Source: Sorangium aterium
GTDB lineage: Bacteria > Myxococcota_A > Polyangia > Polyangiales > Polyangiaceae
Assembly: GCF_028368935.1 (NCBI RefSeq)
Contig: NZ_JAQNDK010000006.1
Span: forward strand, 1-64,000
Direction: 5' to 3'
Length of the DNA: 64,000 bases
Positions 13,774-54,365 of this stretch are shown one piece after another (the first letter of the stretch is position 1; each line of letters begins with the position of its first letter). The position numbers and the translations under genes were made by a program. The notes under the pieces are model-generated. The model made no database searches. It saw only the letters and a list, made by a program, of their open reading frames with translations, and was not told the origin of the DNA.

Positions 13774-13783
13774 GCTCCTCGTG

Positions 13784-36721: not shown

Positions 36722-37470
36722 GGGCCTGTGGCGCCCGTAGCGACGCCAGTTTGCCTCGAGCGAACGAAGACAGTAGTCCCAGTGGCATCTCTCCTCGATT
36801 CGGGTCGCTGGTCGAGCCGGATGGGAACTGAGATCGCCGAAGCAGAAGGATGCCCCTGCAGGTCAATGTGAACGTTCACATTCCGGATGTCAATTCCAAT
36901 CGACCGGCCTCCCGCTGTCCTCGATCCCGGGGGGAGGACGAGGCTGGCGGGGCTCCTTCGGAGCGCCGCGTCGAGCGAGGGATCGTTCGGAGCGCGGCGT
37001 CAGGAGAGATCGGCACAGGATCGCGATCTTCGCCGGCCCGCTCGTCTACCAGGCCTCCAACGGCGTCTGGCTGACCGACCACGTGTCGCCTGCCTTGCGT
37101 GTCGGGCTGGCCCGGCCAGGGTCCCGCCCAGCAAGCGGGAAGGCCGCACCTTCGCATGTCGGGATTCCGACATACCCATCGTGCTTCACGTCCTGCAAAT
37201 ATTCAATCGCTGGATGTCCATGTCCTCCAGGATGAAGGCGAACGACGCCGTTCCGGTCTTGGTCCGGATGTCGTGCTCAACCTTCCTCCTGCTGCGTGCA
37301 TGGGGCGATCAGCGGTCGACTGGAACGACGACAAGCCCCGAGGGCCTCCTGGGGTCGGTCATCATCTGCTCATGGTCGACGGATGCGAGGCACCGCCGCG
37401 AGCGCCCGGCGGCCGTCTCCTGCTTGCCTTCGCCGCTCCCGCTCGGTAGCGTCGGTCCCGGGTAGACCTC
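36722..37470. other. Decayed intergenic region
   Basis: About 750 bp with no intact gene. It contains AT-richer patches, a short inverted motif TGTGAACGTTCACA at about 36868-36881, and a 3'-end fragment reading like RNA 2'-phosphotransferase (annotated separately). Confidence 0.5.
37015..37100 (+). pseudogene. kptA: Possible kptA 3'-end remnant
   Basis: In one frame the stretch reads AGPLVYQASNGVWLTDHVSP, close to the C-terminal signature of Tpt1/KptA RNA 2'-phosphotransferases (F/Y-x-S-x-NGVWLTDHVPP). The upstream sequence does not encode the rest and the frame degenerates at once. It is too short for certainty; if real it marks loss of a gene at this accessory-region boundary. Confidence 0.3.
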
Positions 37471-38409
37471 TTGCCGGCCCCGATCGTCGTCGATATCGCG
37501 TCGGGCCCTGCCGTACAAGGCGAGCTCCCGGCGCTCCTCGTCGAGGCGTGCTCCCGCGCCGCCGGCGGCGGCGGGTGCGCGCTCGGCGATCCGAAGCGCG
37601 CCGGGACCCCGCTCCGGGCGCTCGCCGTCGTCTGGCTGGACGGCCCGGACTACCGCCGGCTGCGGGTCGACGTCGCCTCCCTCGGCGCCCCCGAGGGCAC
37701 GCTGTCATCGCGCGAGATCGAGTTCCGCGAGGAGGATCCGCTGCCCGACCGCTACCGCACCGCGGGGCTGCTGGTCGCGGCCCTGGCGTCGGAGCGCGCC
37801 GGCTCCGCGACGCCGCCCGACCCGACCGCCGCCGCCCCGACCGCCGCTGAGCCGGCCGCGGACGCACCGCCGCCGCGCCCGCTGGGCTGGTTCCTCGCCG
37901 CCGGCGGGCTGGTCGGCAACGGCCTCGATGTCGGCCCCGCGCGCGCCGCCGGCCCCGCCCGCGTCGGCGGCTGGGTCATGGCCACGTCGCTCGACCGGCG
38001 CTCGGGCTTCTTCGGGACCCTCTCGGTGTCCTATGCCGCGGCCCTGCGCGAGCCGGCCCCGGGCCTGTCCGTCCAGTGGCTCACGCTCGGGGGCGGCGGC
38101 GGCATCGCCGCGCCCATCGCGCCGCTCGACGCGCTCGTCCGGGCGAGGATCGAGGCCGCCGCCGACTGGGTGATGGCCTCCCCGCGCGACCCGAAGAAGC
38201 CGGAAGAGACAGGGCACGGGTGGGCCTTCGGGACGCGCACGGCGATCGACCTCGTATGGCCGGCCGAGGGCAGCGTGGCCCTCCTCGGGAGCGCCGAGGC
38301 GTTCGTGCGGATCCACCAGACCGACCTCCACCTCACCCCGAAGCCCGAGGCCGCGCTGCCGAAGGGCGGCGTCACGGGGATGCTGGGGGTGCAGCTGCGC
38401 CTGCGCTGA
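37471..38409 (+). CDS. Hypothetical protein, possibly 5'-truncated
   Basis: About 312 residues opening at TTG 37471; the frame is closed by TAG at 37447 and no ATG or GTG lies between. The protein begins abruptly with PAPIVVDIASGPAVQGELPA and lacks the signal peptide expected for this build. The C-terminal half alternates as in an outer-membrane barrel (GWFLAAGGLVGNGLD, GFFGTLSVSYAAALRE, VTGMLGVQLRLR at the end). Either the start is a poor TTG or the 5' end has been lost in the decayed region upstream. Function unknown. Confidence 0.55.
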   Translation: MPAPIVVDIASGPAVQGELPALLVEACSRAAGGGGCALGDPKRAGTPLRALAVVWLDGPDYRRLRVDVASLGAPEGTLSSREIEFREEDPLPDRYRTAGLLVAALASERAGSATPPDPTAAAPTAAEPAADAPPPRPLGWFLAAGGLVGNGLDVGPARAAGPARVGGWVMATSLDRRSGFFGTLSVSYAAALREPAPGLSVQWLTLGGGGGIAAPIAPLDALVRARIEAAADWVMASPRDPKKPEETGHGWAFGTRTAIDLVWPAEGSVALLGSAEAFVRIHQTDLHLTPKPEAALPKGGVTGMLGVQLRLR

Positions 38410-38418
38410 CTCCGCGTG

Positions 38419-40170
38419 TCAGAAACCCCGCCAGGATTTCTGTGACGACGAGGCGGAGGCGGACGAAATGTCAATGATTCCAACACGTTCTGTCTGATTC
38501 GCGGTCGGGCAGCTCGCCGGTGTGGCCCAACGCGGGCCCAACGGGGCGCCTGCAGCCACCGGGGCGCCCGCTACGAGCTGGCCGGCGTGGTCAACGACCG
38601 CGGCCGGCGCTCGGTGGTGCAGCGCGCGGACAAGGGACGCGTCGTTGCTCGGCGACGACGCGCTCGCCTCCGGTCCCGCGGACATGGGATCACTTCCACC
38701 TGAACGGCCGCCCCTGCCGTTCAGCTCGGGGATCGCCTCGTCCAAAGGAGCGAAGTCCCCCAAGCCGAGCTCTGCGACCTTGCGCGCCGCGCGCTTGTAG
38801 TGGTGAATCTGACGGCTCGATTTATGCCCGGTCCGATCGGAGATCCACGTCTCCGTGCGGCCGTTTGCGAGCTTGATCGTGATGAAAGTCGCGCGGGTGT
38901 CGTGCAAGCGTATATTCAGCCGTGACTGCGTGGTCTCGAACAACTCGGGCCGATCGATGCCAGCACGGCGCAGGTGATTTCGAAAGTTGTGCGCCCCACT
39001 GCGCCCCGGCAGGGGCCCGCTCGGCCCAATGAAGACACGCTCCTTCGGGGGACATATAGCGAAATAGGTCCGAAGCGCGCGCACGACGTCGGGTGAGAGT
39101 GCCCACGCGCGTGGGTCATCCGTCTTGTTCTCGTCGAGCACCACGGCGCCGCGATCGAGATCCAGGTCGGACGGCTCCAGCCTTCCGGCCTCGTCTGCCC
39201 GCATTCCCTCGCGAATCAGGAAGCCATAATAGATCCGATAAGACAGCGGAATATTCACCGCCGCCATGAGGCGCCTATCCTCGTCGGGATAGAGGGAGCC
39301 TTTGGCCTTGTTGTCCTCGGCCTTGGGGATCCATCCACGTGGCAGCGGATTGCTGGCGATGATGCGCGCCGGATAGGTCGCGAGCGCGAGTATCCGATGA
39401 ATGACCTTTGCGACTCCTTGACGCGAGGAGTCCTCAAGATGTCCTGGCAGCATGGAGATCGCTCGATCCGCATGATCGAGCATCAAACGAGAGAGAGGAA
39501 CGGGGCCGAGTACCCCCAGAACATGATTGAGCTTATGCCGGTATTGCTCCGGATGGCGAAGCGCTTTCACATGCAGTGGGTATTGCTCGGCGAGCCTTCC
39601 AGAAACAACCAACTCGGCGAACTCAGCGAAGGTTGTTTCCCCGGACGCGCGAGCACGCGCTTCGCCCCTGCAGAGCTGCTCGATGGCAAGCCGGACGTCG
39701 CGGAGCGCGCTGCCCTCGCGCGCAGCAGCCCGCTCCAGCAGCGGCAAGCCGAGCACGATCTGGCCGGCCGCGAGCAGACGCCCGGCGAGCTCGGACAGCA
39801 CCTCCAAGCGCGCGTTGGCTTCCTGCTCGGTCCGGCACGTCGGCAAGCTGAACGTGGATCGACCGGCCTCGCCGAGGCTGAGTCGCGCGGTCCACGTCTT
39901 CCTGCGCAGCCGGACGGACCCGGAGCCGTTGGCGCGCTTGTCTCCTGCGGGCCTGCCGGGTGCGCGAGTCGCCAGCTTCGGGTGCTCCGTCGTGCTCGCC
40001 GAGCCCGGCGAGTCTGCGGCGACCGCCGCTGCTTCCTCCACCGGAGTGGCACGTCCGGCGGAGCGGCTCGAACGCAGACGCCGATCAGTCGATGCCGGTG
40101 CAGGGAGGGATGAGGCGGGGGACGACGCCGAGCGCTTGGCGCGCACCCGTCGCTGGGGTACGTCGGTCAT
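38419..40170 (-). CDS. Tyrosine recombinase/integrase (intact copy)
   Basis: 583 residues from ATG 40170. The N-terminal 70 residues are basic and low-complexity; residues 80-130 form an arm-type DNA-binding part (NGSGSVRLRRKTWTARLSLG). The core holds the catalytic set R324 (REGMRADEAGRL), K349, H423-x-x-R426 (LHDTRATFITI), H449 (DRTGHKSSRQ) and Y458 (IHHYKRAARK). A 125-residue tail after the tyrosine is long and mostly disordered. It lies 71 bp downstream of the excisionase-like gene, in the same direction, forming a module that is repeated, with its integrase truncated, just to the right. All catalytic residues are present, so it may be active. Confidence 0.9.
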   Translation of the reverse strand: MTDVPQRRVRAKRSASSPASSLPAPASTDRRLRSSRSAGRATPVEEAAAVAADSPGSASTTEHPKLATRAPGRPAGDKRANGSGSVRLRRKTWTARLSLGEAGRSTFSLPTCRTEQEANARLEVLSELAGRLLAAGQIVLGLPLLERAAAREGSALRDVRLAIEQLCRGEARARASGETTFAEFAELVVSGRLAEQYPLHVKALRHPEQYRHKLNHVLGVLGPVPLSRLMLDHADRAISMLPGHLEDSSRQGVAKVIHRILALATYPARIIASNPLPRGWIPKAEDNKAKGSLYPDEDRRLMAAVNIPLSYRIYYGFLIREGMRADEAGRLEPSDLDLDRGAVVLDENKTDDPRAWALSPDVVRALRTYFAICPPKERVFIGPSGPLPGRSGAHNFRNHLRRAGIDRPELFETTQSRLNIRLHDTRATFITIKLANGRTETWISDRTGHKSSRQIHHYKRAARKVAELGLGDFAPLDEAIPELNGRGGRSGGSDPMSAGPEASASSPSNDASLVRALHHRAPAAVVDHAGQLVAGAPVAAGAPLGPRWATPASCPTANQTERVGIIDISSASASSSQKSWRGF

Positions 40171-40241
40171 GGGTCGGTCTCCGGTGAACGCGGGGGTCGA
40201 TCAAGGGCCCGTCCGGCGTTCCAGCGCCGAGCGGGCCCGCT

Positions 40242-40769
40242 CTACTTCGGCGGCAGCCTAGCACGGCTTGTTGCTGCGGAAGGAGCGCTCGCCCGGTCGG
40301 TGCGCGGGCATGGGACAGATTCGAGACCGGCGGAGGCCAGCACGGCGGCAACCCGCGTGCGCTCATCCGCCTCTGTCGTGCGACGCAAGGCCGGCTCACT
40401 GGCCAGCGCCCGGAGGTAGGCCACGAACGCCTCGCGCTGGACCAAGCGCAACTTGCCGAGTTTCGTGATCAGCAGGGGAAAGCCCGGCGCGCGGATCGTG
40501 TCGAGGAAGACGCGCGCGGGGATGCCGGTTACCGACTCGACGTTCTTCTGTGAGAGCATCTCCGGCGGCGGTGCCGTAATCGTCAGCCCATCCAGGGGGA
40601 TCGCGAGCGTTGCGGTTGCCGTCGCCGTCGCTGTCTGGTCGATCACCTTCGGGCTGGACCATCCGCCGGGGGGAAGCTCCAGGCTCTCTCTGTAGCTGGC
40701 GCGCACGCCGCTGCCGGCCTGACGAAGAGCAAGCGGTGCCGATACACGGGCGAGAGCCGCTCGTGTCAT
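40242..40769 (-). CDS. Excisionase-like HTH protein, copy 1
   Basis: 175 residues from ATG 40769. The core EMLSQKNVESVTGIPARVFL, DTIRAPGFPLLITKLGKLRL, VQREAFVAYLRAL reads as a MerR/Xis-like winged helix: HTH, wing with GK, recognition helix. The N-terminus includes (TA)n-type dipeptide repeats. It is about 75% identical by eye in the HTH to copy 2 at 41615-42157. It is the first gene of the integrase module and likely controls recombination direction or transcription. Confidence 0.75.
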   Translation of the reverse strand: MTRAALARVSAPLALRQAGSGVRASYRESLELPPGGWSSPKVIDQTATATATATLAIPLDGLTITAPPPEMLSQKNVESVTGIPARVFLDTIRAPGFPLLITKLGKLRLVQREAFVAYLRALASEPALRRTTEADERTRVAAVLASAGLESVPCPRTDRASAPSAATSRARLPPK

Positions 40770-40836
40770 GCTGTACCTCCATCTGTGTTGTGTTCGTGCG
40801 CAACCGTGACCGACGCCGCCGGAAGGTGCCCGAAAA

Positions 40837-40990
40837 GGTATCTCGGAGCCGACGGTATCTCACTGCGAGATACCCGCTGTACGCGCCTGAGAAAACACCG
40901 CGTCGTGTCGCGGGGTTAGGTGTTCTGAAAGGCGCCGAAGAGGGGTCGAAAGATGGGAGGAGCGAAGGGCATCATTTGGTATCTCGGAGC
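40837..40990 (-). promoter_or_regulatory. Operator/recombination-site array, copy 1 (GGTATCTC type)
   Basis: Upstream of excisionase copy 1 three related sites occur: direct 13-mer GGTATCTCGGAGC at 40837-40849, an inverted repeat GGTATCTC-ACTGC-GAGATACC at 40854-40874, and the 13-mer again at 40978-40990. Spacings are 17 and 141 bp from the first site. The same architecture recurs in copy 2 with a different core sequence. They may bind the excisionase, the integrase, or form the recombination core. Confidence 0.7.
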
Positions 40991-41139
40991 GACCCGCCGG
41001 CACCGCCCGGGGAGGTCGCGCCGCGGCGTGCGCTGAGACCGGCTGCGATAGTGGGCGCGGCCGTGCCGTGGCGGTAGGGGCCATCGGCGGCATCGCGTCG
41101 TCGCCATCGCCGATCGGCACACGCTGCCCACGGAACTGC

Positions 41140-41564
41140 GTCAATTTCGTGCGGTGTCCGTCGTGGGGCGCTCCTCGTCGGCAACGAGCTCGGGCGGCCT
41201 CCAAGCGCCCGGCGCGCTCGGCGAGCACCTCCAGCCGCGCGTTGGTTTCGTCCTCGGTCCAGTACGCGGGCAGGCTGGCGGTCCAGGTGTTCCCGCGCAG
41301 CCGGACGGAGCCCACGCCGTTGGTGCGCATCACTGTCGTTGGTTGGCGGGCGGCGCGAGCGTCTGGCTTCCGACATTCCGTCAAGCTCGCCGGCTCGGCG
41401 AGGCCGCGTCGGGTGCAGCTGTCTCCCAGCGCGACGACGGGCCCCCGCCGCAGCGGCTCGAGCGCGCCCGCCGGTTCGGCGGACGACGGCGCGGGGAGGC
41501 ACGCGGCGGAGAGCGAAGGCGAGCGCTTGGCACGCGCCCGCCTTAGCTGGGCGAGATGAATCAT
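41140..41564 (-). pseudogene. Truncated integrase N-terminus, copy 2
   Basis: From ATG 41564 the first ~145 residues parallel intact integrase: basic low-complexity region, then NGVGSVRLRGNTWTASLPA and ETNARLEVLAERAGRLEAA, after which homology stops near 41200. The remaining catalytic domain is absent; the junction runs directly into the leader of module copy 1. The frame stays open to 40860, giving a chimeric ORF that has no catalytic residues. This looks like a tandem array in which copy 2 lost its recombinase body. Confidence 0.75.
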
Positions 41565-41614
41565 GGGTCGTCTCCGGTTGCCTGGGGGTCCGATGACGGG
41601 CTCGCGCGGCATTT

Positions 41615-42157
41615 TCAACGCCGGACGAGCCCACCACGCGTCCGCCGCAGCCTGCCACCGCCTGCGCCGTGGGGAGGCGCGACCGCTCGGCCGGTGCGTG
41701 CGCACGGGATGAGCTCCAGGCCAGCAGCCGCCAGCACGGCGGCAACGCGCGTTTGCTCATCCCCGTCTGCGTCACGGCGCGACGCTGGGTCACCAGCCAG
41801 CGCCTGGAGGTAGGCGACGAATGCTTCGCGCTGGACGAGGCGCAGCTTGCCGAGCCTCGTGACCGGCAGCGGGAAGCCCGGCCCGCGGATCGTGTCGAGG
41901 AAGACGCGTGCCGGGATCCCGGTGACCGACTCGACGTTCTTCTGCGAGAGCATCTCCGGGTGCGGCGCTGTGAGCGTGAGCCCGTCCAGCGGGATCGCGA
42001 GCGTCGCGGTGGCGGCGGCCGTAGGCGTGCTAATCCTGGGGCTCTGCGATCCTCCGACGGGCGCCTTCAGGATCGTCCTCTCCATCGCGCGCATGCCGTT
42101 GTCAGCCTGACGATGAACAAGTTGTGCCGATACACGCGCGAGAGCCGCGGATGCCAT
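41615..42157 (-). CDS. Excisionase-like HTH protein, copy 2
   Basis: 180 residues from ATG 42157, paralogue of the protein at 40242-40769. The core is nearly identical (EMLSQKNVESVTGIPARVFL, then GKLRLVQREAFVAYLQAL). Differences concentrate in the flanks and a few wing residues (ITKLG versus VTRLG). It precedes the truncated integrase by 50 bp. The DNA upstream carries the second operator array. Confidence 0.75.
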   Translation of the reverse strand: MASAALARVSAQLVHRQADNGMRAMERTILKAPVGGSQSPRISTPTAAATATLAIPLDGLTLTAPHPEMLSQKNVESVTGIPARVFLDTIRGPGFPLPVTRLGKLRLVQREAFVAYLQALAGDPASRRDADGDEQTRVAAVLAAAGLELIPCARTGRAVAPPHGAGGGRLRRTRGGLVRR

Positions 42158-42224
42158 TCCGTACCTCCGTCCGTTTTGGGTTCGGGAGCAACCGTGACCG
42201 ACGCCGCCGGAAGGTGCCCGAAAC

Positions 42225-42378
42225 GGTAGTTCTGCGCTCCCGGTAGTTCAACGCGAACTACCGGTGTACACGCCCGGAAAGAACATCAAGCGATGTCGCG
42301 GGGTTAGGTGTTTTTGGAAGCGCCGCTGAGGGGCCGAAAAACGGGGAAAACGAAGGGCGCGATTTGGTAGTTCTGCGC
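42225..42378 (-). promoter_or_regulatory. Operator/recombination-site array, copy 2 (GGTAGTTC type)
   Basis: Matches copy 1 in layout: 13-mer GGTAGTTCTGCGC at 42225-42237, inverted repeat GGTAGTTC-AACGC-GAACTACC at 42242-42262, 13-mer again at 42366-42378. Spacing is identical (17 and 141 bp). All half-sites have shifted together from TATCTC to TAGTTC. The flanking sequence between the sites is otherwise conserved, including CGCGGGGTTAGGTGTT. Confidence 0.7.
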
Positions 42379-42519
42379 GCCCCCTCAGCGCCGCGCGCAG
42401 AGGTGACACCGAGGGGTGCGCCGGGACCGACTGCGATGGCCGGTGCGGCCGTGCCGTGGCGGTGAGGGCCATCGGCGGTACCGGCTCATCTCCATCGCAC
42501 ACCGGCGCACATTGCCAAC

Positions 42520-43131
42520 CGAAACATGGGGCCGCCGCCTTTCAGCGACGGAAAGTCGACGCCAGGGACAGAGGCCGCGAACGTGTCCACGCTTCAATGG
42601 GGCCACCGCCGTTTAGCGGCGGAAAAGACGGCTTCGCTCGCGGCGATCTCTGCCGACGTCACGCTTCAATGGGTCGCATTTCAGCGGCGGAAAGCTTGGT
42701 ACGCCGTCGCGGACGAGACGCCGAGAGCGCGACTTCACTGGGGCCGCCGCCCTTCAGCGGAGGAGAGCACCTACGACACGGTGAAGCGCGTCATCAGTGG
42801 CGAGCTTCAATGGGGCCGCCGCCTTTCAGCGACGGAGAGGTCGCTATCAAGTCGTGAGGTAGGGGCGATGGACGCGCTTCAATGGGGCTGCCACCTTTCA
42901 GCGACGGAGACGCGGAATGGGCGCGCGTCACCGAGAAGAAGTGCTTGTGGCTTCAATGGGGCCGCCGCCTTTCAGCGGCGGAGAGGGTAGAGGTTCGTGA
43001 GCGCCGTGTGGCGCAGGTGGTGGCTTCAATGGGGCCGCCGCCTTTCAGCGGCGGACAGCGGGCGCGTCCTATCACGACCTGCCGAACCTGAAGTGGCTTC
43101 AATGGGGCCGCCGCCTTTCAGCGGCGGAGAG
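42520..43131 (-). CRISPR. Orphan CRISPR array, 9 repeats, 8 spacers
   Basis: A 36-bp repeat beginning GCTTCAATGGGGCCGCCGCC and ending AGCGGCGGAGAG occurs at 42520, 42591, 42663, 42732, 42804, 42876, 42950, 43023 and 43096, with eight unique spacers of 35-38 bp. The repeat holds a 7-bp perfect stem CCGCCGC-CTTTCA-GCGGCGG. Read on the minus strand it ends in ATTGAAGC, the usual 5' handle type, so transcription runs leftward with the leader on the right (43132 on). Repeats on the right are near perfect; those on the left are mutated (42663 has lost 4 bp; 42520 has a scrambled end), matching leader-distal decay. No cas gene is in the window. Confidence 0.92.
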
Positions 43132-43400
43132 TGGGCACGGAGACTACAAGACATTTCGCGCACTTGCGACCCGGTTTGCGAGAGATTCCCGATCCGCTCC
43201 TCGCTCGGGCACCCGAGGCGCTCCGCACACCCCAGATCGCCCCAATTTTCGTCGCCATTTCAAACACCTGTCAGCGTTGCGAGCGCCTCCGGGGATTTTC
43301 GTATCACTCCCCCTCTCGAAACCGGTCTGCCGTCCCCTTCTACGCGGCATCTCCCCCCGCCGTCCAGTCCCTCGTGCGCAGCCATCGACTGACGGCGTGA
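43132..43400 (-). promoter_or_regulatory. Probable CRISPR leader
   Basis: The sequence adjoining the best-preserved repeat end is locally AT-richer than its surroundings (for example ATTTTCGTCGCCATTTCAAA around 43246-43265) and contains no gene. On the minus strand TTGAAA near 43262 is the only -35-like hexamer noticed. Assignment rests mainly on the polarity of repeat decay. Confidence 0.45.
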
Positions 43401-43519
43401 GCTCCTGCGGCTCCTGAATGGAGCACCGCGGGCGCTTCAGTGGGGGCGATCGGCGCAGCCACCTCAGTCACCACCACGACGGCCCGAGCCCATGCTGCCC
43501 GCGCCCCACGCCCTCCTGG

Positions 43520-43744
43520 CGCCACCGCTCCGCCGCCCAGCTCGCCCGCCAGGTCCTGCCCCGCCACCTCCGCGCCTTCGAGGGGGCGCCCGAAGGCGTC
43601 GTTGCCGTCCCACAAGAACGTCGTCTCGCTGTTCGGCTCGCAGGGGCAGGCGAATCGCTCCTCCGAAGCGCCAACCGGCGATCTCGACGATCAGGTCGAT
43701 GCGCTCGAGCGAGGCGGGCACGCGGCGGCGGCTGAGCGGGATCG
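43520..43744 (-). pseudogene. Rhs/YD-repeat protein remnant with frameshift
   Basis: Directly after the stop of the next gene, the minus strand reads IPLSRRRVPASLERIDLIVE then IAGWRFGGAIRLPL, shifts frame near 43640, and continues EPNSETTFLWDGNDAFGRPL. The pair resembles a conserved segment of myxobacterial Rhs-type proteins (a beta domain followed by TFTWDGxDAYGRxLxG). It then degenerates. It suggests that an Rhs toxin gene once stood next to the polymorphic toxin operon. Confidence 0.45.
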
Positions 43745-44818
43745 TTAGGGCATCATGCCGAGCGCGGAGAGAGCATCGACCCAGAGCGGCCAGAGCGTGC
43801 GGTAGAAATGGGTCGCCATCATCATGCCGCCGCTCGGGAGGCGGCGAATGGTGAACGGGGCGTGGTCGGCGAGGAAGTAGACGTGCTCGCCCGTCATCTC
43901 GACGTACCACAGCGGTGGCCCTTTTAGGCTCGCGGGGAGCTGCTCGCCGCGCGCCTTGGCCTGCACCGTCAGGTTGTGGATCTCCTCGGCGCGCGGCTCC
44001 GCGGCGCGCCACGCCTCGTCGGGCACATCCGCGGCGGCCACGAGCGCCTCGATGAGGGCGGAGGCCGGCAGCGCCAGGGCCTTGATGACGGTCTCGCGGG
44101 AGAGCGGGATCGAGCGCCCGCTCTTGTCCGTCGGAACCACGCGCGCCCCGGCCGGCGCGGCTTCCACCCGCGCGCGAAGCGCCTCGATCGACAGGCGCGC
44201 GATCCGCGAGACGCTTTCGTTCTCGTGAAGGCTGACCCACGACAGCGCGAGATCGCGCGCGATGTCGTGGGCGTTCGCGTGGTACGTCGCGCACATCGAG
44301 ACCGGCGCGAGCCAGGTCCAGGCGGTCGTGCAGCCGCCGGTCGAGACGCGCCTGCTCGCGTCGGGCGCGCAGAGGCGGAGGAGAAAGTCCTCGGTGTCGG
44401 TGACGACCTTGTGCCATGCCAGCACGGCCTCGGCCCCGACCGAGGACGAGCCGCTGCCCAAGTCGAGGATCATGTACTTCGGGGCGAATTCCTGGAGATT
44501 TTCAGGGTGCAGGTGGAGGGGGCCCCATGACGTGGAGCGTTCGCTCCTGTCGGTGAAGCAGCGAAGGTTGCAACGGACGAACTGTCCGGAGCTCGAGATC
44601 GAGTGGAGGACGACCTCCGCATCGGCGCGTCGGAAGCGGGCGCGGATCGCCGCGACCGCCTCGTCGACAGGAGCCTCGTGAGTCTCCGGGCCGGGGTAGA
44701 GGCGAACGCCGACCGTATGCGGAGGCTCGTCGACGAGCGCCGACAGCGCCGCGCCGAGCGCGTCGACCCGCGCGGCCTCGTCGCACCAGGCATAGAAGTA
44801 AGGTCCTGCTCTCATCAC
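43745..44818 (-). CDS. Candidate immunity protein, paralogue 1
   Basis: 357 residues starting MMRAGPYFYAWCDEAARVDA, 13 bp after paralogue 2. The two share N-terminal FYAWCDEA-R-VDAL-AALS, mid-region CATYxANAxxIARDLAxSWVxLH, SRETVxKALA and the C-terminal LASGG/LPSGG...TLWPLW-DAL. Not assigned to a known family by me. Position after an exported nuclease-like toxin, tight spacing, duplication, and lack of a signal peptide all fit cytoplasmic immunity proteins. The second copy may protect against a lost toxin variant. Confidence 0.65.
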   Translation of the reverse strand: MMRAGPYFYAWCDEAARVDALGAALSALVDEPPHTVGVRLYPGPETHEAPVDEAVAAIRARFRRADAEVVLHSISSSGQFVRCNLRCFTDRSERSTSWGPLHLHPENLQEFAPKYMILDLGSGSSSVGAEAVLAWHKVVTDTEDFLLRLCAPDASRRVSTGGCTTAWTWLAPVSMCATYHANAHDIARDLALSWVSLHENESVSRIARLSIEALRARVEAAPAGARVVPTDKSGRSIPLSRETVIKALALPASALIEALVAAADVPDEAWRAAEPRAEEIHNLTVQAKARGEQLPASLKGPPLWYVEMTGEHVYFLADHAPFTIRRLPSGGMMMATHFYRTLWPLWVDALSALGMMP

Positions 44819-44831
44819 TCGACGTTCGTTG

Positions 44832-45983
44832 TCAGCACGACAGGCCGAGCGTGTCGAGCGCGTCGGCCCAGAGCGGCCAGAGCGAGCAGAACGGATGGGT
44901 CGCCAGCACCACGCCGCCGCTCGCGAGGCGGCGCACGAGAAACGGCGGGTGCGTTTTCAGGAAGCGGAAGTGACGGTGCTTGTCTGTGTCAACCGGCCAG
45001 GTCGGTGGACCATCACCGGTCTCCGCGAGCCTTCGTGTCCACTCCAGGATCTCAGCGGCGCGCGGCGCGGCCGCACGCCAGGCGCCGTCGGGCAACGCCG
45101 AGGCTTCCAGCGCGTCGAGCAGCGCCGAGGGCGGCGTGGCCAGCGCCTTGAGGACGGTCTCGCGGGAGAGCGACCACGTCGGCGCGCCGCCCCCTTTCCT
45201 GGCGACGCGCGATCCGCGTGGCGGCGCGAGGGCCACGCGCGCCCCGCGCGGCGCGGCTTCGACGCGCGCGTGGAGCATGGACAACGGGATGCCCGCGATG
45301 CGCGACACGTTGTCCTGGTCGTGGAGGTGTACCCACGACACGGCGAGGTCGCGCGCGATCTCGCGGGCGTCCGCGTTGTACGTCGCGCATGTGGTGACCG
45401 GCGCGTGCCAGTGCCATGCGTTCGTGCACGCGCCGGTTCGGACGCGCCCGCTCCCGTCCGGCTCGCAGAAGCGGAGCAGAAGATCCTCGAGGTCGATCTG
45501 CAGGAGGTGCCAGGCCAGCTCGGCCTCGACCTCGAAGGAGCGCGGTCCCCTGCCCCAGGCGAGCTCGAGGATGAAGCCGAAAAAGTGCATGCAGTTCTCC
45601 GGGTACATCTCGAGGGGGCCTTGCGGCTCGTGGGGGCCTCGCAACGACCAGCGAGGTTCGTACGCTTCGGTGAAACACTGAAGATCGACAAGAATGCTGC
45701 GCATGGCAGGGGAGTGGGGTCCACGCTGGTCCGGAAGGGCCAAGCGCTGGGCGCCGGGAAGGATCGTGCTGCACGTGGCGTGAGCCGTGCCGGTGCATGG
45801 GTACTGGGTGCGGATCATGGCGACGGCCGCCTCGATGGATTTCGTGGCGCATCTCACGTCGAAGTTTGCCCACGCATCCAGGAACCCCCCTGGGCGCGCA
45901 AGCGTCGACAGCGCCGCGGCGAGCGCGTCGACCCGCGACGCCTCATCACACCAGGCGTAGAAGCGAGGCCCCGGAGTGCTCAT
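44832..45983 (-). CDS. Candidate immunity protein, paralogue 2
   Basis: 383 residues from ATG 45983, whose first bases overlap the toxin stop (ATGA). It shares the scaffold of the downstream paralogue but differs in the first 130 residues and carries a longer acidic centre. Direct translational coupling to the toxin is the strongest argument that this one is the cognate immunity protein. No signal peptide or membrane helix is seen, so it would act in the cytoplasm where the nuclease must be neutralised. Confidence 0.65.
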   Translation of the reverse strand: MSTPGPRFYAWCDEASRVDALAAALSTLARPGGFLDAWANFDVRCATKSIEAAVAMIRTQYPCTGTAHATCSTILPGAQRLALPDQRGPHSPAMRSILVDLQCFTEAYEPRWSLRGPHEPQGPLEMYPENCMHFFGFILELAWGRGPRSFEVEAELAWHLLQIDLEDLLLRFCEPDGSGRVRTGACTNAWHWHAPVTTCATYNADAREIARDLAVSWVHLHDQDNVSRIAGIPLSMLHARVEAAPRGARVALAPPRGSRVARKGGGAPTWSLSRETVLKALATPPSALLDALEASALPDGAWRAAAPRAAEILEWTRRLAETGDGPPTWPVDTDKHRHFRFLKTHPPFLVRRLASGGVVLATHPFCSLWPLWADALDTLGLSC

Positions 45984-48187
45984 AGCCGGATCACCTTGAT
46001 GGGCATATTGAAGCCTTTCAGGCTCGCCCTCTTGCCTTTCTGCGTGTCGAAGAGGTAACCGTCCTGCGCGATGTACTGGGTGCCACCGAACTTTCCGCCC
46101 CGCTCCATGAGGAGCTGGACCTCCTCGACATCTCCCACGAGTCCGTTCTGCCGTACCCCCTCCATCCCGCTCGACAACTGCTCGATGACGTCATTGCCAT
46201 TGACATTGGCCCCTCCTTTCGCCTCGCTCAGGACGAGCTTGCCCTGCGCGGACACCGTGATGAAGTCGGGCGCCCTTGGCTTGGTGGCCGCATTGCCGGT
46301 CAACTTAGGCCAGAGCGTCGCGCGCACGCCGTCATCGCCGACGCCGAGGAGCGTCCGCCCATCGCGGGCGAGGAACTTCGCCGCCGTCTTCTCGAACGGG
46401 TAGAGCGGCTGCGCCGTCACCGCTCCCCTCAGCGTCTTGTACGCGCGAAGCCTGCGTACCTCAAATCCCTTGACAAGGACATCATCGACCTCCGCGATCT
46501 CCCCAGCGATCCGGATCCCACGCGGCGGTAGCGCGCCGGCGGCAGCAACGCCGTGCCAGATGTGCCCGACCGCCCCGAGCCCGAAGCCGAGCCCCGAGAA
46601 GATCCGCTCCTCATCGCTGAGCTCTCGCCCCGACGGCACACACCACTCCTTGCCCGTCACGGCCTCGCATAGGTCGAGCGTCGGCCCGACCACGGGGACG
46701 AACCCCACCCCGATGCGCGTCGTCGCGTGCACCAGCGTCTGCATCACCTCCCCGTACGCCTCGAAGCCTTCGGCGACCGTCGACATCGCGCCCGCGAACG
46801 CGCTGATCGTCTGGTAGAGCTGCGTCTGCTCCAGGTCGAGCCCGCCCCCCGTCCACAGGTTGAGGTTGTCCTTCATCTGGTCCGCGAGCGCATCGAACCG
46901 TGGCTTCAGCACCGTGTCCACCTGCGCCCGCAGGTCGGCAGGCACGGGCGAGTCCTCGAACCAGTCCGACGCATCCATGAACTGCCGCACGAACCCGGTG
47001 ATCCGGCTCTGCGCCTTCAGGAACGCGTTGGTCTCCGCGAATGACACCCCCATCCGGTCGCGCAGCGCGATCTCCAGCGCCGCGCTGTTGGCCCTCCACG
47101 CCCGCACGTTTGCCACGAAGTCCGCCCGGAGGACCACCACCCGGCCGCTGACGTCCGCCTCCAGCGCCGCGAGCACCGCGTCCGCGTACGCCGCGTAGGG
47201 ATCCCGCCCCTCCTCGAACGCGCCGTCCACCTCCGCGATGTCCGGCACCTCGACCCACGGCACCTCGCTCTCCCCGAGCGCGTACGCCTGCGGGTCGTCC
47301 GGGTCCCACCCCTCGGCGCGCGCGTCTTCCGTCGCCAGGTCCGCCACCTCGTCGGCCTGCGCGCCGAACTCGTCCATCAGTCGCGCGACCTCGTCCTCGA
47401 GATCGCTGACGCTCTTCTTCAGGTCGTCGACGAGCTGCTCCATCGCCGCGCGCGTCTCCGGTGCGACCGCGTCCTCATACCGGTCCAGGATCGCCTCGAG
47501 GTCGGTCCGCGAGATCTCGTCCAGCGGCCGGCCGACAAGGTCCTTGAGCTCGGTGTCGAGCTGCTGGAGCAGGTCCATCTTCTCCGCGAGCAGGCCCACC
47601 GCCCGTGCGTTCGCCACGAGCGCCGCGCGCTCCTTGGCGATCTCGGTCAGCAGGATCTCGATGTCGCGCGCCAGCGCCGGGTTGATCTCCGCGAGGCTCA
47701 GGTCGACGCTCCGGCTGCCCTCGAAACCGGTTGCATCGCGGCGGATATCGAAAAGCGGCTTGTTCAGCCCGAGCGGCTCCGAGACGAGGTGCACCACCTC
47801 GTGCGAGTGGGTACACCAGTCGCCGCCGTTGACGGTGTGGACTCGGAAGTGGAAGTCGTTGCTGCCCGTGCGGAGCAGCACCGAGTCGAACTCCGCCTCG
47901 AAGATGTTGCTCTGGGAGCCATCGGCTTCGATCCGCAGCGCGTCCGGAACCGAGTACGTGGGCAGCGGCGTCTGGTTCACCTCGAAGAATGCCTCGCCCT
48001 CCCTCTCCAGCTCGGCCTTCCCGCATGAGGTCGCGTCCTCGCGCTCGTTCCAGAGCAAGGTGTACGGCGTTCCCGCCCACCCCACCGACGGCGCCAGCAC
48101 CGCCACCATCGTGACCAGCGCGACGAGCTTCCGCAGCACAGCGGCGCGAACGCCACGCGGAGCAACGTTCTTCTTCGACCGCCTCAT
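45980..48187 (-). CDS. Exported polymorphic toxin with PD-(D/E)XK-like C-terminal nuclease
   Basis: 735 residues. A Sec signal (LRKLVALVTMVAVLAPSVGWA) opens the chain. Residues 150-300 are long acidic coiled coils, 400-490 helical. Residues 494-535 (VGFVPVVGPTLDLCEAVTGK) match a pretoxin-TG type segment common before toxin domains. The C-terminal ~95 residues carry PDF (640-642), then LVLSEAKGG with E655 and K657, the D-x(n)-E-x-K signature of PD-(D/E)XK nucleases, followed by a helix (NDVIEQLSSGMEGVRQ) and strands. DNA or RNA cleavage in competitor cells is implied. Its ATG overlaps the stop of the lipoprotein gene and its TGA overlaps immunity paralogue 2. Confidence 0.75.
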   Translation of the reverse strand: MRRSKKNVAPRGVRAAVLRKLVALVTMVAVLAPSVGWAGTPYTLLWNEREDATSCGKAELEREGEAFFEVNQTPLPTYSVPDALRIEADGSQSNIFEAEFDSVLLRTGSNDFHFRVHTVNGGDWCTHSHEVVHLVSEPLGLNKPLFDIRRDATGFEGSRSVDLSLAEINPALARDIEILLTEIAKERAALVANARAVGLLAEKMDLLQQLDTELKDLVGRPLDEISRTDLEAILDRYEDAVAPETRAAMEQLVDDLKKSVSDLEDEVARLMDEFGAQADEVADLATEDARAEGWDPDDPQAYALGESEVPWVEVPDIAEVDGAFEEGRDPYAAYADAVLAALEADVSGRVVVLRADFVANVRAWRANSAALEIALRDRMGVSFAETNAFLKAQSRITGFVRQFMDASDWFEDSPVPADLRAQVDTVLKPRFDALADQMKDNLNLWTGGGLDLEQTQLYQTISAFAGAMSTVAEGFEAYGEVMQTLVHATTRIGVGFVPVVGPTLDLCEAVTGKEWCVPSGRELSDEERIFSGLGFGLGAVGHIWHGVAAAGALPPRGIRIAGEIAEVDDVLVKGFEVRRLRAYKTLRGAVTAQPLYPFEKTAAKFLARDGRTLLGVGDDGVRATLWPKLTGNAATKPRAPDFITVSAQGKLVLSEAKGGANVNGNDVIEQLSSGMEGVRQNGLVGDVEEVQLLMERGGKFGGTQYIAQDGYLFDTQKGKRASLKGFNMPIKVIRL

Positions 48188-49650
48188 GTCCCCTCCGCGC
48201 CGCGCACGGCGGCGTCATACGCGATCGCGGCGCCCTTCACGTCCCCCGCGTCGAGCCTCGCCTGAGCCGCGTCGAGCTCCGCCGCGGCCATGCCCTTCTC
48301 CCGCAGCGCCGCGAGACCCGCCGCGATCTTCTGCGGCACCCCCGTGCTGAGCTCGGCCGCCGCGGCGTCGAACCTTCCTCGAAGCTCCGCGCACCCGGCC
48401 TCGCGCCAGGACGACCCCGCCGCCTCGCAGAGCGGTCGCAGCTGCGCCAGCGCCAGGAGCTCGCCGCACCGCTCGGCCAAGAGCGGCAGCCCGAGCTTCT
48501 CGCTCACCGGCGGCGCCGCCGACAGCGCCGCGACCTGCGCGCGCGCCCGCTCCCCGAAGGCGTCCGACGCCTTACGGGTCCGCGCCTCTGCGATCGCCTC
48601 GCGCGCCCCCTCGTCCATCTGCAGTACGCGGAGCGCCTGCCGGCGCAGCGCGATGCCGCCGAGCAGCGCCGACGCGGTCGCGTCGCTCCGGGCGACGCGA
48701 CCCTTCACGTAACCCAGCATCGCGTTCAGCGAGCGCAGCGCGCCCGAGGTCATGTCCGGCAGCACCGCGCCGTGCGTGGCGAGCAGCTCCCTGTGCGGCG
48801 CCATCGCCTCATCGAAGGAGGCCGCGAAGACCTGGAGCGTCGCCGACCAGCTCAGGATCTCCGCGGTGAGCTCGCCGGGCGCGCGGCTCGCCTCGCGCGC
48901 CGCCGCGAGCACGGCCTGCTCCACGCCGTCGAGGCCGTCGATGTCCGACCGCGACGCCTGCTTCGAGAGCGCCGCGTACGCCGCCGTCTCCGCCGCCTCG
49001 GTCGCGCGATACGCGGCGAAGCGCGCCGCGACGCCCGCGTACTTCGATCGCAGCGGCGCGACGTCGCTCCGGGCCTGGTCGAAGACCGCCTGCACGGCCG
49101 CCATCGCCTGCCGGTCGGCCGCGAGCGTGGCGGCGAGCGGTTCCCTCTCGGCGCTGGCCTTGTCGAGCATCGCCGCCTTGAAGTTGCCGGCCGCGTCGAC
49201 CGGCGCCTCCGCGAGCAGCACCCTCTGGCGGTCCCTCGCCTCGTCGAGCAGCGACGCGAGCTTGCCCGCGAGCGTCGCCCGCAGCGACTCGGCGTTCCTC
49301 GCGTCGTCGCGCACGTACGCGATCGCCTCGTCGATGTGGCCGAACCAGACGCCGAGCGAGGTTTCGCTCGCGACGATCTCCTCCGGCGTCTTGTTGTTCG
49401 GCCAGGTGGCCCACACCTCGATGGGCAGAGCGCCGTCCTTCTCGGCCTGGGCCCACGCGGCGCCCGGCCCCTGATTCTCGCCCACGCAGTGCTCCTCGCC
49501 ACCCACCGCCGCCGCGCAGAAGCTCCCGAACGTGTCGTCCCCGAACTCCCACAAGCACCCGGCCCCTGCCGCGCCGAGCGCCAGGGCGGCCACAGCGACC
49601 GCAAGGATCGTCCTCCGTCGCCTCGGTCTGGATCTTTCGCCCATGCTCAT
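48184..49650 (-). CDS. Helical lipoprotein, first gene of toxin operon
   Basis: 488 residues from ATG 49650, chosen because GGTGGAGG lies just upstream; GTG 49659 is an alternative. Lipobox LGAAGAGC. The mature protein (LWEFGDDTFGSFC...) has a short Cys-containing head and then is almost wholly alpha-helical and Ala-rich, like an extended coiled-coil stalk, with a C-terminal TPR-like helix pair (ARLDAGDVKGAAIAYDAAVR). It overlaps the toxin gene by 4 bp. The order lipoprotein, toxin, immunity recalls myxobacterial sitBAI loci, where an accessory lipoprotein helps toxin transfer, but no sequence similarity is claimed. Confidence 0.75.
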   Translation of the reverse strand: MSMGERSRPRRRRTILAVAVAALALGAAGAGCLWEFGDDTFGSFCAAAVGGEEHCVGENQGPGAAWAQAEKDGALPIEVWATWPNNKTPEEIVASETSLGVWFGHIDEAIAYVRDDARNAESLRATLAGKLASLLDEARDRQRVLLAEAPVDAAGNFKAAMLDKASAEREPLAATLAADRQAMAAVQAVFDQARSDVAPLRSKYAGVAARFAAYRATEAAETAAYAALSKQASRSDIDGLDGVEQAVLAAAREASRAPGELTAEILSWSATLQVFAASFDEAMAPHRELLATHGAVLPDMTSGALRSLNAMLGYVKGRVARSDATASALLGGIALRRQALRVLQMDEGAREAIAEARTRKASDAFGERARAQVAALSAAPPVSEKLGLPLLAERCGELLALAQLRPLCEAAGSSWREAGCAELRGRFDAAAAELSTGVPQKIAAGLAALREKGMAAAELDAAQARLDAGDVKGAAIAYDAAVRGAEGT

Positions 49651-50044
49651 TGCCTCCACCCCGCGATTTTTCTCGCTCGCGCACGCTCGCCCGCATGTTT
49701 TCCAGAAGCAAGCGTCCCCACCAGAGCGCTAGGACATTGCTCGGCCGTGGATCGCGCCCCGAGCGCCAGGTTGTCCGTCCTCAATGCGCGGACAGTCGCG
49801 GAACCGGAGAGGTGTGCTTGGGGGTGCGTGACGCCACGGCCTGCGGACCGGGGTCGAGGCGGACGCCGCTGAGCTCGTGACCCTCGGCGGCGAGCTCCCC
49901 GAGCGAGGTCTCGGCGTCGTGCTCTTGGGGCGCCGCGCGGCTGTCGACGTCGCCACCAGCAGGCCCGCGGGCGCCCTCGTGGAGCTCCGAGCGTGCCACC
50001 GTCGGCGCCCTGTCACACCAGGGTTCGCCTGAAGTGTCGTGATC
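49651..50044. other. Intergenic, no gene seen
   Basis: About 390 bp separating two minus-strand operons. On the plus strand 49843-50030 one frame reads smoothly (AELVTLGGELPERGLGVVLL) without a convincing start, perhaps a decayed fragment. It should also hold the toxin-operon promoter, which I could not identify. Confidence 0.4.
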
Positions 50045-51559
50045 CTATTCAGGGAAACGCAGCGTCTCGACCCGGGTGCCGTCCTCCCCCCGGATCTCTT
50101 CGCCAGACCAATCCCAGCTCACGCCGCCCTTGCCTGGCAGCCCCAGCTTGTAGGTGACACCCTCGATCGTGAGCTGGTCCTCGTCGAGGTAGGCGATGCC
50201 GATCGAGTCGCCGCCGCGCCCCGGGCCGCCGTAGCCGCCATCGCCACCTCGGCCGCCGTTGCCGCCTTCACAGCCCCACCTGCCATCGCCCACGGCCCCG
50301 CCAGGTGCGCCTCGGCCGCCTTTGCCGCCATCCTCGGGCTCCCCGCCGTCACCCCCCGTCCCCGCGTCGAGCGTCTCGATCTCGCTATCGCGCACCGTCA
50401 GCTTGGCGTGGAGCGCGACGATGCCGATCGTTGGCTGGCCGTTCCCGCCCCCTCGGCCGCCTCGTCCGCCGCAGCCCCCTGCGCCGCCCGAGCCGCCGCC
50501 GGCGCCTCCCTTCGCGGCCTCGCCGCACACGACGAGCCCGCCGCGACGGCCGCCGCCCCCGCCGCCGCCTTGGCCCGGCATGCCGCGGCTGCCCTCGGCT
50601 GCCCCATCGCCCTCCCATCCGGTCTCGGTGATCCGCCCGATGCCCTCGCCAACCGCGCCCGGTGTTCCCCAGAGGCCAGGACTGCCGTGGAATCCACTGT
50701 CGCAACCGCCGTCTACTTCGCGGTCTCCGTCCCCGCCCCGTCCTGAGCTGGTGGGGTCGGACGCAAGGACGGGCGTGCCGGTGTCGCCATCCTCCGCGCC
50801 GTCGGGAAGCCCGTCACCACCCTTGCCACTGACGCTCGGCATTCCGCCGTCGCACGGGTTGACCACCGCCGGCCCGCCGGCGATCGTGGCCGCCGAGCAC
50901 GCATCCCCGCCGTACATGCCGTGCGGGCCGTCCGCTGCCTGGGATGGCCAGGGCCACTCTTCGCCATCGCGGCCTCCCAATCCCCAGGATGCGCGGATCT
51001 TGCCCCGGGTGAACTCCACCACGGTATCCGACCGGACCAGCATCCCGACATGAATCCCGCCCAGGACGGTCACATGGTCGATCGTCGAGACGCCATCCGC
51101 TGCCCCGGTGTCGCCCGCGCCCGCTGGCTCGACGATCAGCGCGATGCTCCTACCGGAGCGGGGGACGATCTTGGTCGTATCACCCGGCCCGCGTCCCCAA
51201 TCGACGAGCTGGAAGCCTCCATAGATATCCACGCCGGAGGGCAGCGTGACGTGCTCGTCAAGGCTGAGGTTGGTTAGGAACACGCGACCGCGCCCGGTGC
51301 GTGCGAGCTCGATCCCGCGCTGCATCGAACGAACCGGCCTGTCCTTCGTGCCGGGGTTCGCGTCGTCGCCGCCGAAAAACGGGTCAGTGACGAACACGCC
51401 GCAGCCATCGATCACCTGATCCATGGCAAGCTGCTCGATGCATAGCGATTCTGGGACCGCCTCGCCGGGATCGTTCACCCCTGGAGTGGTGCCGCAACCG
51501 GCAGCGACGAGCGGAACAACAAGGAGAACGAAGAACGTTGAATTGGACATCATCGGCAT
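50045..51559 (-). CDS. Glycine-rich PGRS-like lipoprotein, paralogue 1
   Basis: 504 residues, lipobox VVPLVAAGC. After a Cys-containing head the start of a right-handed beta-helix is seen (DDANPGTKDRPVRSMQRGIE, LPSGVDIYGGF). Residues 200-450 are glycine-rich repeats (GGAGGGSGGAGGCGGRGGRG and similar) with interspersed Asp/Cys. The C-terminus returns to ordinary composition. Such proteins are frequent in myxobacteria and probably form surface coats or bind calcium or carbohydrate. It is 30 bp downstream of paralogue 2 in the same operon. Confidence 0.75.
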   Translation of the reverse strand: MPMMSNSTFFVLLVVPLVAAGCGTTPGVNDPGEAVPESLCIEQLAMDQVIDGCGVFVTDPFFGGDDANPGTKDRPVRSMQRGIELARTGRGRVFLTNLSLDEHVTLPSGVDIYGGFQLVDWGRGPGDTTKIVPRSGRSIALIVEPAGAGDTGAADGVSTIDHVTVLGGIHVGMLVRSDTVVEFTRGKIRASWGLGGRDGEEWPWPSQAADGPHGMYGGDACSAATIAGGPAVVNPCDGGMPSVSGKGGDGLPDGAEDGDTGTPVLASDPTSSGRGGDGDREVDGGCDSGFHGSPGLWGTPGAVGEGIGRITETGWEGDGAAEGSRGMPGQGGGGGGGRRGGLVVCGEAAKGGAGGGSGGAGGCGGRGGRGGGNGQPTIGIVALHAKLTVRDSEIETLDAGTGGDGGEPEDGGKGGRGAPGGAVGDGRWGCEGGNGGRGGDGGYGGPGRGGDSIGIAYLDEDQLTIEGVTYKLGLPGKGGVSWDWSGEEIRGEDGTRVETLRFPE

Positions 51560-51588
51560 CCCTCGACGGCAGCGCTGCGGTGAGCGAC

Positions 51589-53247: not shown

Positions 53248-54365
53248 CACACCCCCTCGATGCTCACGCCCGTTTCGTGCCCGGTCACGACGGGCGATAT
53301 CTGGACCCGATCCTGAGCTGACGTGCGGCCCAGGAAGGAGAAGTCCGTGAAGAAGGACGCGGCGGTGGCCGCGCCGATCACACCGCCCGTGATGACCAGC
53401 GCCGTGCCCACCCGGTCCGACAGGTTGCGCGCGTCGCGCAGGCGCCGCAGCTCGCCGCACGGCGAGCGCTCTGGCGCTTGCCAGCACATGGACGAGTTCG
53501 ATCTCGGGTCGCTCTCGAGCTGGTCACGCCGCGCGCTCATGTCCTGATCGAGCTTGCTGGCGCTGATCATGAGGATGGCGCCTGCCGATACGGTGCCCGT
53601 CGCGAGCGTGATTCCCACGACACGCAGCGTCCCCGGCCACGAGGCCCACGGGCTGGAGGCCTGCGCGCGCGGAGCGGGCAAAGCGCGCACCGGAGTCGGC
53701 GTCGCGGTCGTGGTCCCCCTGGCGCTGCTCGCCTCCTTGGCGCCGCTCGCCGCCGCACACAGCAACGGCATCGTGAACTCGTGCTCCGCGCCTGCGACGG
53801 CGCGCAAGGAATGAAGCGCGTCCTTACAGCCCGGTGCACGGCCCCGCACCATGTGTTGGCCCGGCTCGAAGAACAGCGTGTAGGTCCGCGCGGTCCGGCC
53901 GATGCGCTTGCCGTCGACGAGCACCTCGGCGTCGGGCGGATCGACGCCCAGCACGAGCCGCGCGACGTGCGGCGCTGCGTTGCGCTGCCCGGCCTCGAAT
54001 CGCTGCTGGAGCGCTTCCGGCAACGCTTCGCGCTGTTCTAGGCTCCTGGCCAGGTGCTCGGCCGCGTCGCGGTACTTGTGCAGCGCGAGCTCGCAAAGGC
54101 CGAGCTCGCCGGCGAGCTCCGCGCGCTCCACCTCGGTGCTGGTCGACGCGTCCGCGGCCTCCAAAGCTGCCTTGTATTCAGCGGTTGCCTCGGTCCACTG
54201 CCCGGCCTTGCGCGCTCTCCGACCACGGCGAACATGCTCCTTCACCGTCGACCCGTCGCTCGGTCCCGCCTTCGGATGGGTATCGTCCGCACTGGACGAT
54301 TTCGGGAAGCCTGTTGCGGCCCCGAGCGCAAGAAAAATTGAGAGCGAATGCGCAATGCAACGCAT
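53244..54365 (-). CDS. TPR/PEGA-domain exported protein
   Basis: 373 residues from ATG 54365; the open frame extends another 141 codons without coding character. An N-terminal signal (CIAHSLSIFLALGAATGFP) precedes TPR-like helices (residues 35-125: RARKAGQWTEATAEYKAALE). A PEGA-type beta domain follows (LGVDPPDAEVLVDGKRIGRT, EPGQHMVRGRAPGC). Two C-terminal hydrophobic segments (VVGITLATGTVSAGAILMIS and GTALVITGGVIGAATAASFF) probably anchor it. It is the first gene of an operon with the two glycine-rich lipoproteins, and divergent from the sigma factor gene. Confidence 0.75.
   Translation of the reverse strand: MRCIAHSLSIFLALGAATGFPKSSSADDTHPKAGPSDGSTVKEHVRRGRRARKAGQWTEATAEYKAALEAADASTSTEVERAELAGELGLCELALHKYRDAAEHLARSLEQREALPEALQQRFEAGQRNAAPHVARLVLGVDPPDAEVLVDGKRIGRTARTYTLFFEPGQHMVRGRAPGCKDALHSLRAVAGAEHEFTMPLLCAAASGAKEASSARGTTTATPTPVRALPAPRAQASSPWASWPGTLRVVGITLATGTVSAGAILMISASKLDQDMSARRDQLESDPRSNSSMCWQAPERSPCGELRRLRDARNLSDRVGTALVITGGVIGAATAASFFTDFSFLGRTSAQDRVQISPVVTGHETGVSIEGVW

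Follow-up and report, generated by a model that had tools for sequence, protein, structure and literature searches.

Arrays of four half-sites in the xis-int leaders of small Sorangium elements change in concert, but not strictly, and may be integrase arm-type sites

The first 64,000 nucleotides of contig NZ_JAQNDK010000006.1 of the myxobacterium Sorangium aterium (here the window, meaning this whole stretch of DNA) contain two neighbouring copies, one of them incomplete, of a module that consists of a tyrosine recombinase gene (int), a putative excisionase gene (xis) and the leader upstream of xis. Each leader carries an array of four short half-sites that are all alike within a copy and differ between the copies. 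Our best explanation, to which we assign a probability of about 0.5, is that these arrays are arm-type sites of the recombinase (Int) that double as xis-int operators in a minimal integrative element. The element's own Int would bind the array, held by its arm-binding domain, as arm-type sites inside the right end of the element, and because the sites sit in the xis-int leader, Int probably also controls its own expression. The concert of the half-sites would then be a mixture, in which leaders are exchanged as blocks, perhaps together with the matching Int type, and selection keeps the sites alike as the preferred word shifts, mixed arrays being the in-between states of such a shift.

In each leader, the half-site word GGTANNTC occurs four times: as site A; as B, 17 bp from A; as B', inverted, 5 bp past B; and as C, 141 bp from A. 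The offsets of A/B/B'/C (0/17/30/141) are the same in both copies, as the earlier note on this DNA had stated. Also borne out is its observation that all half-sites of a copy, inverted arm included, are alike: GGTATCTC four times in copy 1 (plus-strand starts at 40837 for A, 40854 for B and 40978 for C, complement at 40867 for B') and GGTAGTTC four times in copy 2 (42225, 42242 and 42366, complement at 42255).

40837..40849, plus strand: site A of copy 1, GGTATCTCGGAGC
40854..40874, plus strand: sites B and B' of copy 1, an 8-5-8 inverted repeat (B at 40854-40861, GGTATCTC; B' at 40867-40874, GAGATACC)
40978..40990, plus strand: site C of copy 1, GGTATCTCGGAGC
42225..42237, plus strand: site A of copy 2, GGTAGTTCTGCGC
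42242..42262, plus strand: sites B and B' of copy 2 (B starts at 42242, B' at 42255)
42366..42378, plus strand: site C of copy 2, GGTAGTTCTGCGC

Identity between the two copies is 72% across a 260-nt stretch with A, B and B', and 74% across a 250-nt stretch with C. In the window, GGTA[AGT][CT]TC occurs seven times on the plus strand, six of these being A, B and C sites, and its complement eight times, two of these being B'. A search for the A-B-B' pattern with free dinucleotides and at most two mismatches yielded 22 matches (16 without mismatch) in four of the six Sorangium genomes, compared with four for a reversed control. By both counts, the array is not due to chance. The distance to the xis start codon, downstream of the array, is 68 bp from site A and 209 bp from site C, and the array is situated inside the right end of the element, at a distance of about 150-430 bp from this end. 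A terminator-like hairpin with a T run (minus strand, 40898-40913) is located between C and B', upstream of xis. A sigma-70 promoter scan of 40700-41200 found no promoter, and Sorangium promoters may not fit the sigma-70 model.

Matches to xis were found at five places in the window's own genome and in 12 of the 144 genomes searched (own included), four of the 12 within the genus Sorangium; the named loci come from Sorangium cellulosum So0157-2, So ce26 and So0008-312. The resulting set of 22 arrays from four Sorangium genomes includes 16 with a xis gene or its start and six without xis; the latter were left out of the agreement tests, simulations and permutations. Module S10.2, missed by the pattern, was added by hand, and one pattern match was dropped as chance, the treatment given to the So ce26 locus G001:C1:2902811 (two mismatches), where the C site was not looked for. 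The 87 half-sites of the set follow the motif GGTA-D-Y-TC, with T at position 7 in all 87, A at position 4 in 86 and G at position 2 in 85. Variation is found mainly at positions 5-6, where the dinucleotide is AT in 39 half-sites, TC in 23, AC in 14, GT in nine and AG in two. Wherever C fits the motif exactly, it lies 139-141 bp from A. Position 11 of site A is A in all five TC modules and in none of the 11 others, and the word is thus longer than 8 bp.

The concert of the half-sites is real but not strict. Across the 16 modules, 61 of 96 pairs of half-sites have the same dinucleotide, against a mean of 27.5 and a maximum of 45 in 20000 column shuffles. Clear excess agreement is confined to positions 5 and 6 (81 and 70 of 96; means 39.9 and 45.1). 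When the sites were simulated as independent on a tree of xis plus leader with the sites removed, two parts that may differ in history and in which the S10.43 row fills only 31% of the columns, no run out of 2000 reached 61 pairs in any of four settings at the fitted rates, and with the rates halved 0 to 19 of 2000 did so. The argument of the earlier note that independent drift cannot explain the agreement is thereby strengthened. Tests on independent pairs had only two to four pairs to work with, which is too few.

The same modules set a limit to this concert. All four half-sites are alike in seven of the 16 (copy 1, copy 2, S1.89a, S1.89b, S9.8, S10.2 and S10.43), and the other nine have mixed dinucleotides. 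Sites that vary separately, the outcome that the earlier note had named as speaking against its claim, are therefore encountered in part of the collection, and its statement that the sites change in concert holds as an excess of agreement, not as a rule. Some mixed arrays look like half-finished changes: in the order A/B/B'/C, S3.8 reads GT/GT/TC/AT, c5.48 reads AC/AC/TC/AT, and c1.74 reads AT/GT/GT/GT where its relative S1.89b has AT four times.

The modules appear to be integrated elements of about 2.7-2.8 kb, a view supported by element ends and by unfilled left junctions.

38437..41142, minus strand: element 1 (copy 1), about 2.7 kb, with int, xis and leader; ends approximate
41143..42523, minus strand: element 2 (copy 2), internally deleted; similarity on the right stops at 42523

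At the left end of element 1, chromosomal homology to So0157-2 and So ce26 (G004 and G001) stops at 38437-38438, and homology to two further genomes (G002 and G003) stops already at 38404-38405, about 33 bp earlier. On the right, an 87% match to a So0157-2 element stops at 41142; window positions 41101-60000 have no match in the four loci (G001-G004). The clearest ends come from two relatives, S3.8 and c5.48, which share 91.6% identity across 2.8 kb between flanks that are unrelated; one unit with defined ends in unrelated surroundings is what an integrative mobile element would look like. The left junction of c5.48 is unfilled in four genomes, reading GCCGGTTTTTCCGGCGC in three and ACCGGTTTTTCCCGCGC in one, compared with GCCGGTTTTTCCGTGCGG in c5.48 itself. 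The right flank of c5.48 is not syntenic with these four genomes, so that only the left half of the empty site is seen; in the same kind of comparison for c1.74, the flank is partly repeated sequence. Because element 1 stops at 41142 and the next dozen bases resemble the left end of another element (AATTTCGTGCGG at 41143 is similar to the S3.8/c5.48 left end over about 12 bp), the two window copies probably stand in tandem, joined at an attachment site. A comparable tandem, with TC next to AT but another deletion, is present in So0157-2.

The insertion points (window 38415-38440 and the c5.48 left junction) look like inverted repeats with a T-rich part, GCCGG-TTTTT-CCGGC, and are perhaps transcription terminators. 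No tRNA was found in the 64-kb window. Among 15 module regions scanned from -2600 to +700 of A, there are three exact motif matches outside the arrays, one at the S3.8 left end, one in c1.74 (at -142) and one in S9.8 (at +485); in the same scan, S10.2, the sites of which deviate, has no exact match.

The genes of the two copies are as follows.

38704..40170, minus strand: int of copy 1, tyrosine recombinase (PF00589, E 2.7e-14); the open frame continues to 38419
40242..40769, minus strand: putative xis of copy 1, 175 amino acids, with a winged helix-turn-helix predicted at about residues 71-124
41193..41546, minus strand: int remnant of copy 2, N-terminal arm-binding part, 49% identical to int residues 6-135
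41615..42157, minus strand: putative xis of copy 2, 180 amino acids, 69% identical to xis of copy 1

Copy 2 has retained xis and lost most of int, and the description of the pair as duplicated int/xis modules needs correction: the int of copy 2 is an N-terminal piece only. The Int of copy 1 is classed as a tyrosine recombinase by its PF00589 catalytic domain with the R..HxxR..H..Y pattern; R324, H423, R426, H449 and Y458, which we take to be the catalytic residues, are invariant in 23 aligned sequences. Its fold matches include XerA, full-length lambda Int and Tn1549 Int. The predicted layout, three strands (84-89, 92-98 and 104-109) and a helix (115-135) followed by core-binding and catalytic domains, suggests a lambda-type integrase with an arm-binding domain, that is, an N-terminal three-stranded sheet plus helix. 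The case for Xis as an excisionase (recombination directionality factor) comes from a confidently predicted winged helix-turn-helix and a gene that adjoins int, but the copy 1 protein is 175 residues long, has no family in Pfam or NCBIfam and resembles RdfS and Pukovnik Xis only weakly in fold (E about 1 to 2.4).

Which protein might read the changing word? The earlier note doubted that Xis discriminates, and rightly so: its helix-turn-helix is identical in copy 1 (TC) and C7_563 (AT), and few residues differ in copy 2. The comparison with the arm-binding residues of Int, proposed in the same note as a way to find a cognate reader, came out negative, with few residues of the predicted sheet varying and none of this variation following the site type. 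A link is seen farther along the protein. The int gene is a mosaic in which the core-binding and first catalytic part (window 38889-39683) differs by type and the rest is common: in this part, the identity of copy 1 and S1.89a is 0.79-0.87 to S3.8 and c5.48 and 0.65-0.77 to five others (c7.48 is absent from this comparison, and its Int type rests on trees), while the arm-domain windows are similar throughout (0.82-0.91). It looks as if target specificity were exchanged between elements. Copy 1, S1.89a, S3.8 and c5.48 (type I) form a clade in the Int tree. Among the ten modules with their own int, B' is TC in all four of type I and in none of the six others, and A is AT in none of the four and in all six others; the exact-count probability of each split is 1 in 210.

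The histories of the parts disagree. In approximately unbiased (AU) tests, the xis tree rejects the type I grouping (AU p 0.0009) and the Int tree, in turn, the grouping seen for xis (p 0.0001), whereas a single clade of the five TC modules is not rejected by the between-site leader (p-AU 0.21). The sites thus travel with the leader, and perhaps also with the middle part of Int; block-wise exchange of leaders may explain part of the concert. The earlier note, which had weighed drift against selection for a cognate reader or a copying mechanism, had overlooked this cause.

Several observations weigh against Int as the reader of the array. The array lies on only one side of the crossover, about 150-430 bp away, and not on both sides of the core. 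Not every known integrase system needs arm-type sites on both sides of the core, but the arm sites of lambda are closer to the crossover than the array is here. Over the 27 arm-sheet residues NGSGSVRLRGKTWTARLSLGEAGRPTF, S1.89a (TC) is identical to c7.48 and So0008 (both AT); at the residue that follows, which belongs to the third strand, they have S, N and T, respectively, and S also occurs in AT modules. The link of site type to the middle of Int is post hoc and comes from ten related modules, six of which, those outside type I, form no supported clade in the Int tree. For type I as a group, the between-site leader gives little support (44/18). The Ints of S3.8 and c5.48 are close (90%), yet the two modules differ at sites A and B. 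Finally, none of the five xis-less arrays that keep four sites has all four alike, which counts against strict concert.

Another candidate reader of the array is Xis itself, with its predicted winged helix-turn-helix, or a host regulator: a dimer would occupy an operator at B/B', single subunits would sit on A and C, and looping would bring about repression. The location of the sites upstream of xis, with an inverted repeat in that region, and the confident winged helix-turn-helix prediction suit such an operator, and RdfS of a Mesorhizobium integrative and conjugative element is described as binding both attP and its own promoter (PMC11963761). We nevertheless consider this unlikely, given that the helix-turn-helix does not change with the word between copy 1, with its four TC sites, and C7_563, changes little in copy 2, and that the xis tree conflicts with the Int grouping that the site types follow. 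There may also be no discriminating reader at all, with the dinucleotide nearly neutral within D-Y, whole leaders swapped by ordinary recombination and some agreement arising by chance. The conflict between the xis and int trees, a sign of mosaic elements, agrees with this possible, if doubtful, account, as do the unrejected TC clade of the between-site leader, the high share of mixed arrays and the fact that the simulation tree was itself built from a mosaic. What it does not easily accommodate is the contrast between S3.8 and c5.48: in these 91.6% identical elements, sites A and B both read GT in the former and AC in the latter. At positions 9-10, A and B each retain their own letters in either element, so that no contiguous tract was copied from A to B; moreover, swapping of leaders leaves the first matching of the sites within a leader unexplained.

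The half-sites could instead be core-type sites, bound by the core-binding and catalytic domains of Int. Beside the attI site of integrons there are core-like direct repeats, which the integrase binds next to the crossover. The S3.8/c5.48 element ends carry GGTATTTCC, GGTTTTTCC and GGTACTTCC, close to the GGTAATTCT of many arrays, and it is the middle block of Int, not the arm domain, that follows A and B'. However, the unfilled site reads GCCGG-TTTTT-CCGGC, so that the resemblance may be due to chance, the ends of other elements match less well, and the array words lie about 150-430 bp from the ends that they resemble; we rate a core-type role as quite improbable. Very unlikely, in our judgement, is an arrangement in which the sites must match one another and not a changing protein, any D-Y being tolerated, assembly requiring equal copies and the word drifting freely. 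Least credible of all is a leader that acts as an RNA, an attenuator or guide, in which the copies would base-pair among themselves. Pairing is possible between B' and any one of A, B and C, and an alifold prediction on 16 leaders has both-sided changes (in at least one sequence) in six of 34 predicted pairs, three of them in the B/B' stem; the covariation term, however, is 0.04, and we rejected a leader RNA structure as a candidate. The three both-sided pairs outside B/B' are broken in three to five of the 16 sequences. The sites agree in 12 of the 16 modules for A-B and for A-C, in ten for B'-C, nine for A-B' and eight for B-B'. Because the direct copies agree best and B and the inverted arm worst, the reverse of what selection for pairing would produce, RNA pairing is disfavoured, and with it the RNA copy that the earlier note had listed among possible readers.

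The reading of the arrays as arm-type sites of Int has a published precedent for the concerted change. In cluster K1 mycobacteriophages, as described in PMC3203893, a single position of the arm-type sites is T throughout CrimD and G throughout Anaya but divided in Adephagia, a state that the authors regard as possibly transitional; as candidates, the paper names substitutions at positions 17 and 19 of the Int N-terminus. The Sorangium arrays resemble K1 attP in having several short sites per element, a switch of all sites and a mixed member. Unlike in K1, where paired sites flank the core, the Sorangium array is one-sided, contains an inverted arm, switches at two positions and has no matching change in the arm sheet. 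Cluster J mycobacteriophages are described as having inverted, arm-type-like sites at the start of int, with a regulatory role raised as a possibility and no systematic link of the site sequence to the N-terminal domain (PMC3706429); these are phages with attP downstream of int, whereas the Sorangium array precedes xis and its element measures about 2.7 kb. The IntS/RdfS system of ICEMlSym-R7A is reported to combine the arm-type consensus TGKTGGTATC, five sites in a 283-bp attP and a winged helix-turn-helix excisionase (PMC11963761). This consensus has TGGTATC in common with site C of copy 1, but ICEMlSym-R7A is an integrative and conjugative element with rdfS apart from intS, whereas in Sorangium xis adjoins int. 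According to PMC2951348, IntS of KplE1 represses its own gene via sites that overlap the promoter; there, arm and core sites both overlap it, unlike in Sorangium, where the core is elsewhere and regulation would follow from the position of the array. Literature searches on Sorangium and myxobacterial integrases returned no such elements in titles or abstract openings, which is no proof that they are undescribed.

Beyond Sorangium, comparable arrays were sought in two sets of regions. The first consisted of 12 upstream regions, nine from outside Sorangium and three from truncated Sorangium copies, in which perfect 8-bp inverted repeats were sought; L024 and L025, both among the nine, had inverted repeats, though of another kind, and the rest had none. 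Of 40 integrase regions compared, 39 picked from the integrase matches (not all of which were taken) and one other, 37 lie outside Sorangium; among these, filtered matches with at most two mismatches showed the 17/5 geometry in one, L132 of genome G019, with an unrelated word. In G019, which belongs to another genus, a distant xis (L132 at about 3333; L025 leader) has three 17-bp direct repeats of an unrelated word in its leader, at a spacing equal to that of A to B. Within the collection, L058 (about 12970-14610), L057 and L062 have a second, inverted array about 1.6 kb away. In L058, C is again 141 bp from A, and a segment with a 161-residue frame lies between the two inverted arrays. Such double arrays would be either head-to-head elements or an invertible segment. 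In the single-contig genomes of So ce26 and So0157-2, all 12 xis matches are on the minus strand, and linked loci lower the effective count; an int fragment is present in So ce26 at 210 kb on the plus strand.

The surroundings of the window copies contain other repeated features. A CRISPR-like array with about nine repeats (42525-43139), the first of them cut short, begins where element 2 ends, and the same repeat has six matches at C2:1704791-1705195 of the same genome; an Rfam scan of window 37000-48000 gave only a sub-threshold CRISPR repeat match. A gene for a glycine-rich protein is found at 50045-51559, and homologous DNA flanks several modules on the right (S3.8, c10.14 and c1.74).

For cluster K1 phages, a change of the recognition word through mixed stages has been suggested from a handful of genomes. 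If the array is indeed bound by Int, these tiny Sorangium elements would form a series provided by nature, with repeated shifts of the word and a protein that is for the most part unchanged. Such a series would allow one to ask which part of an integrase reads the site, and how a word that is written at several sites changes by way of mixed stages.

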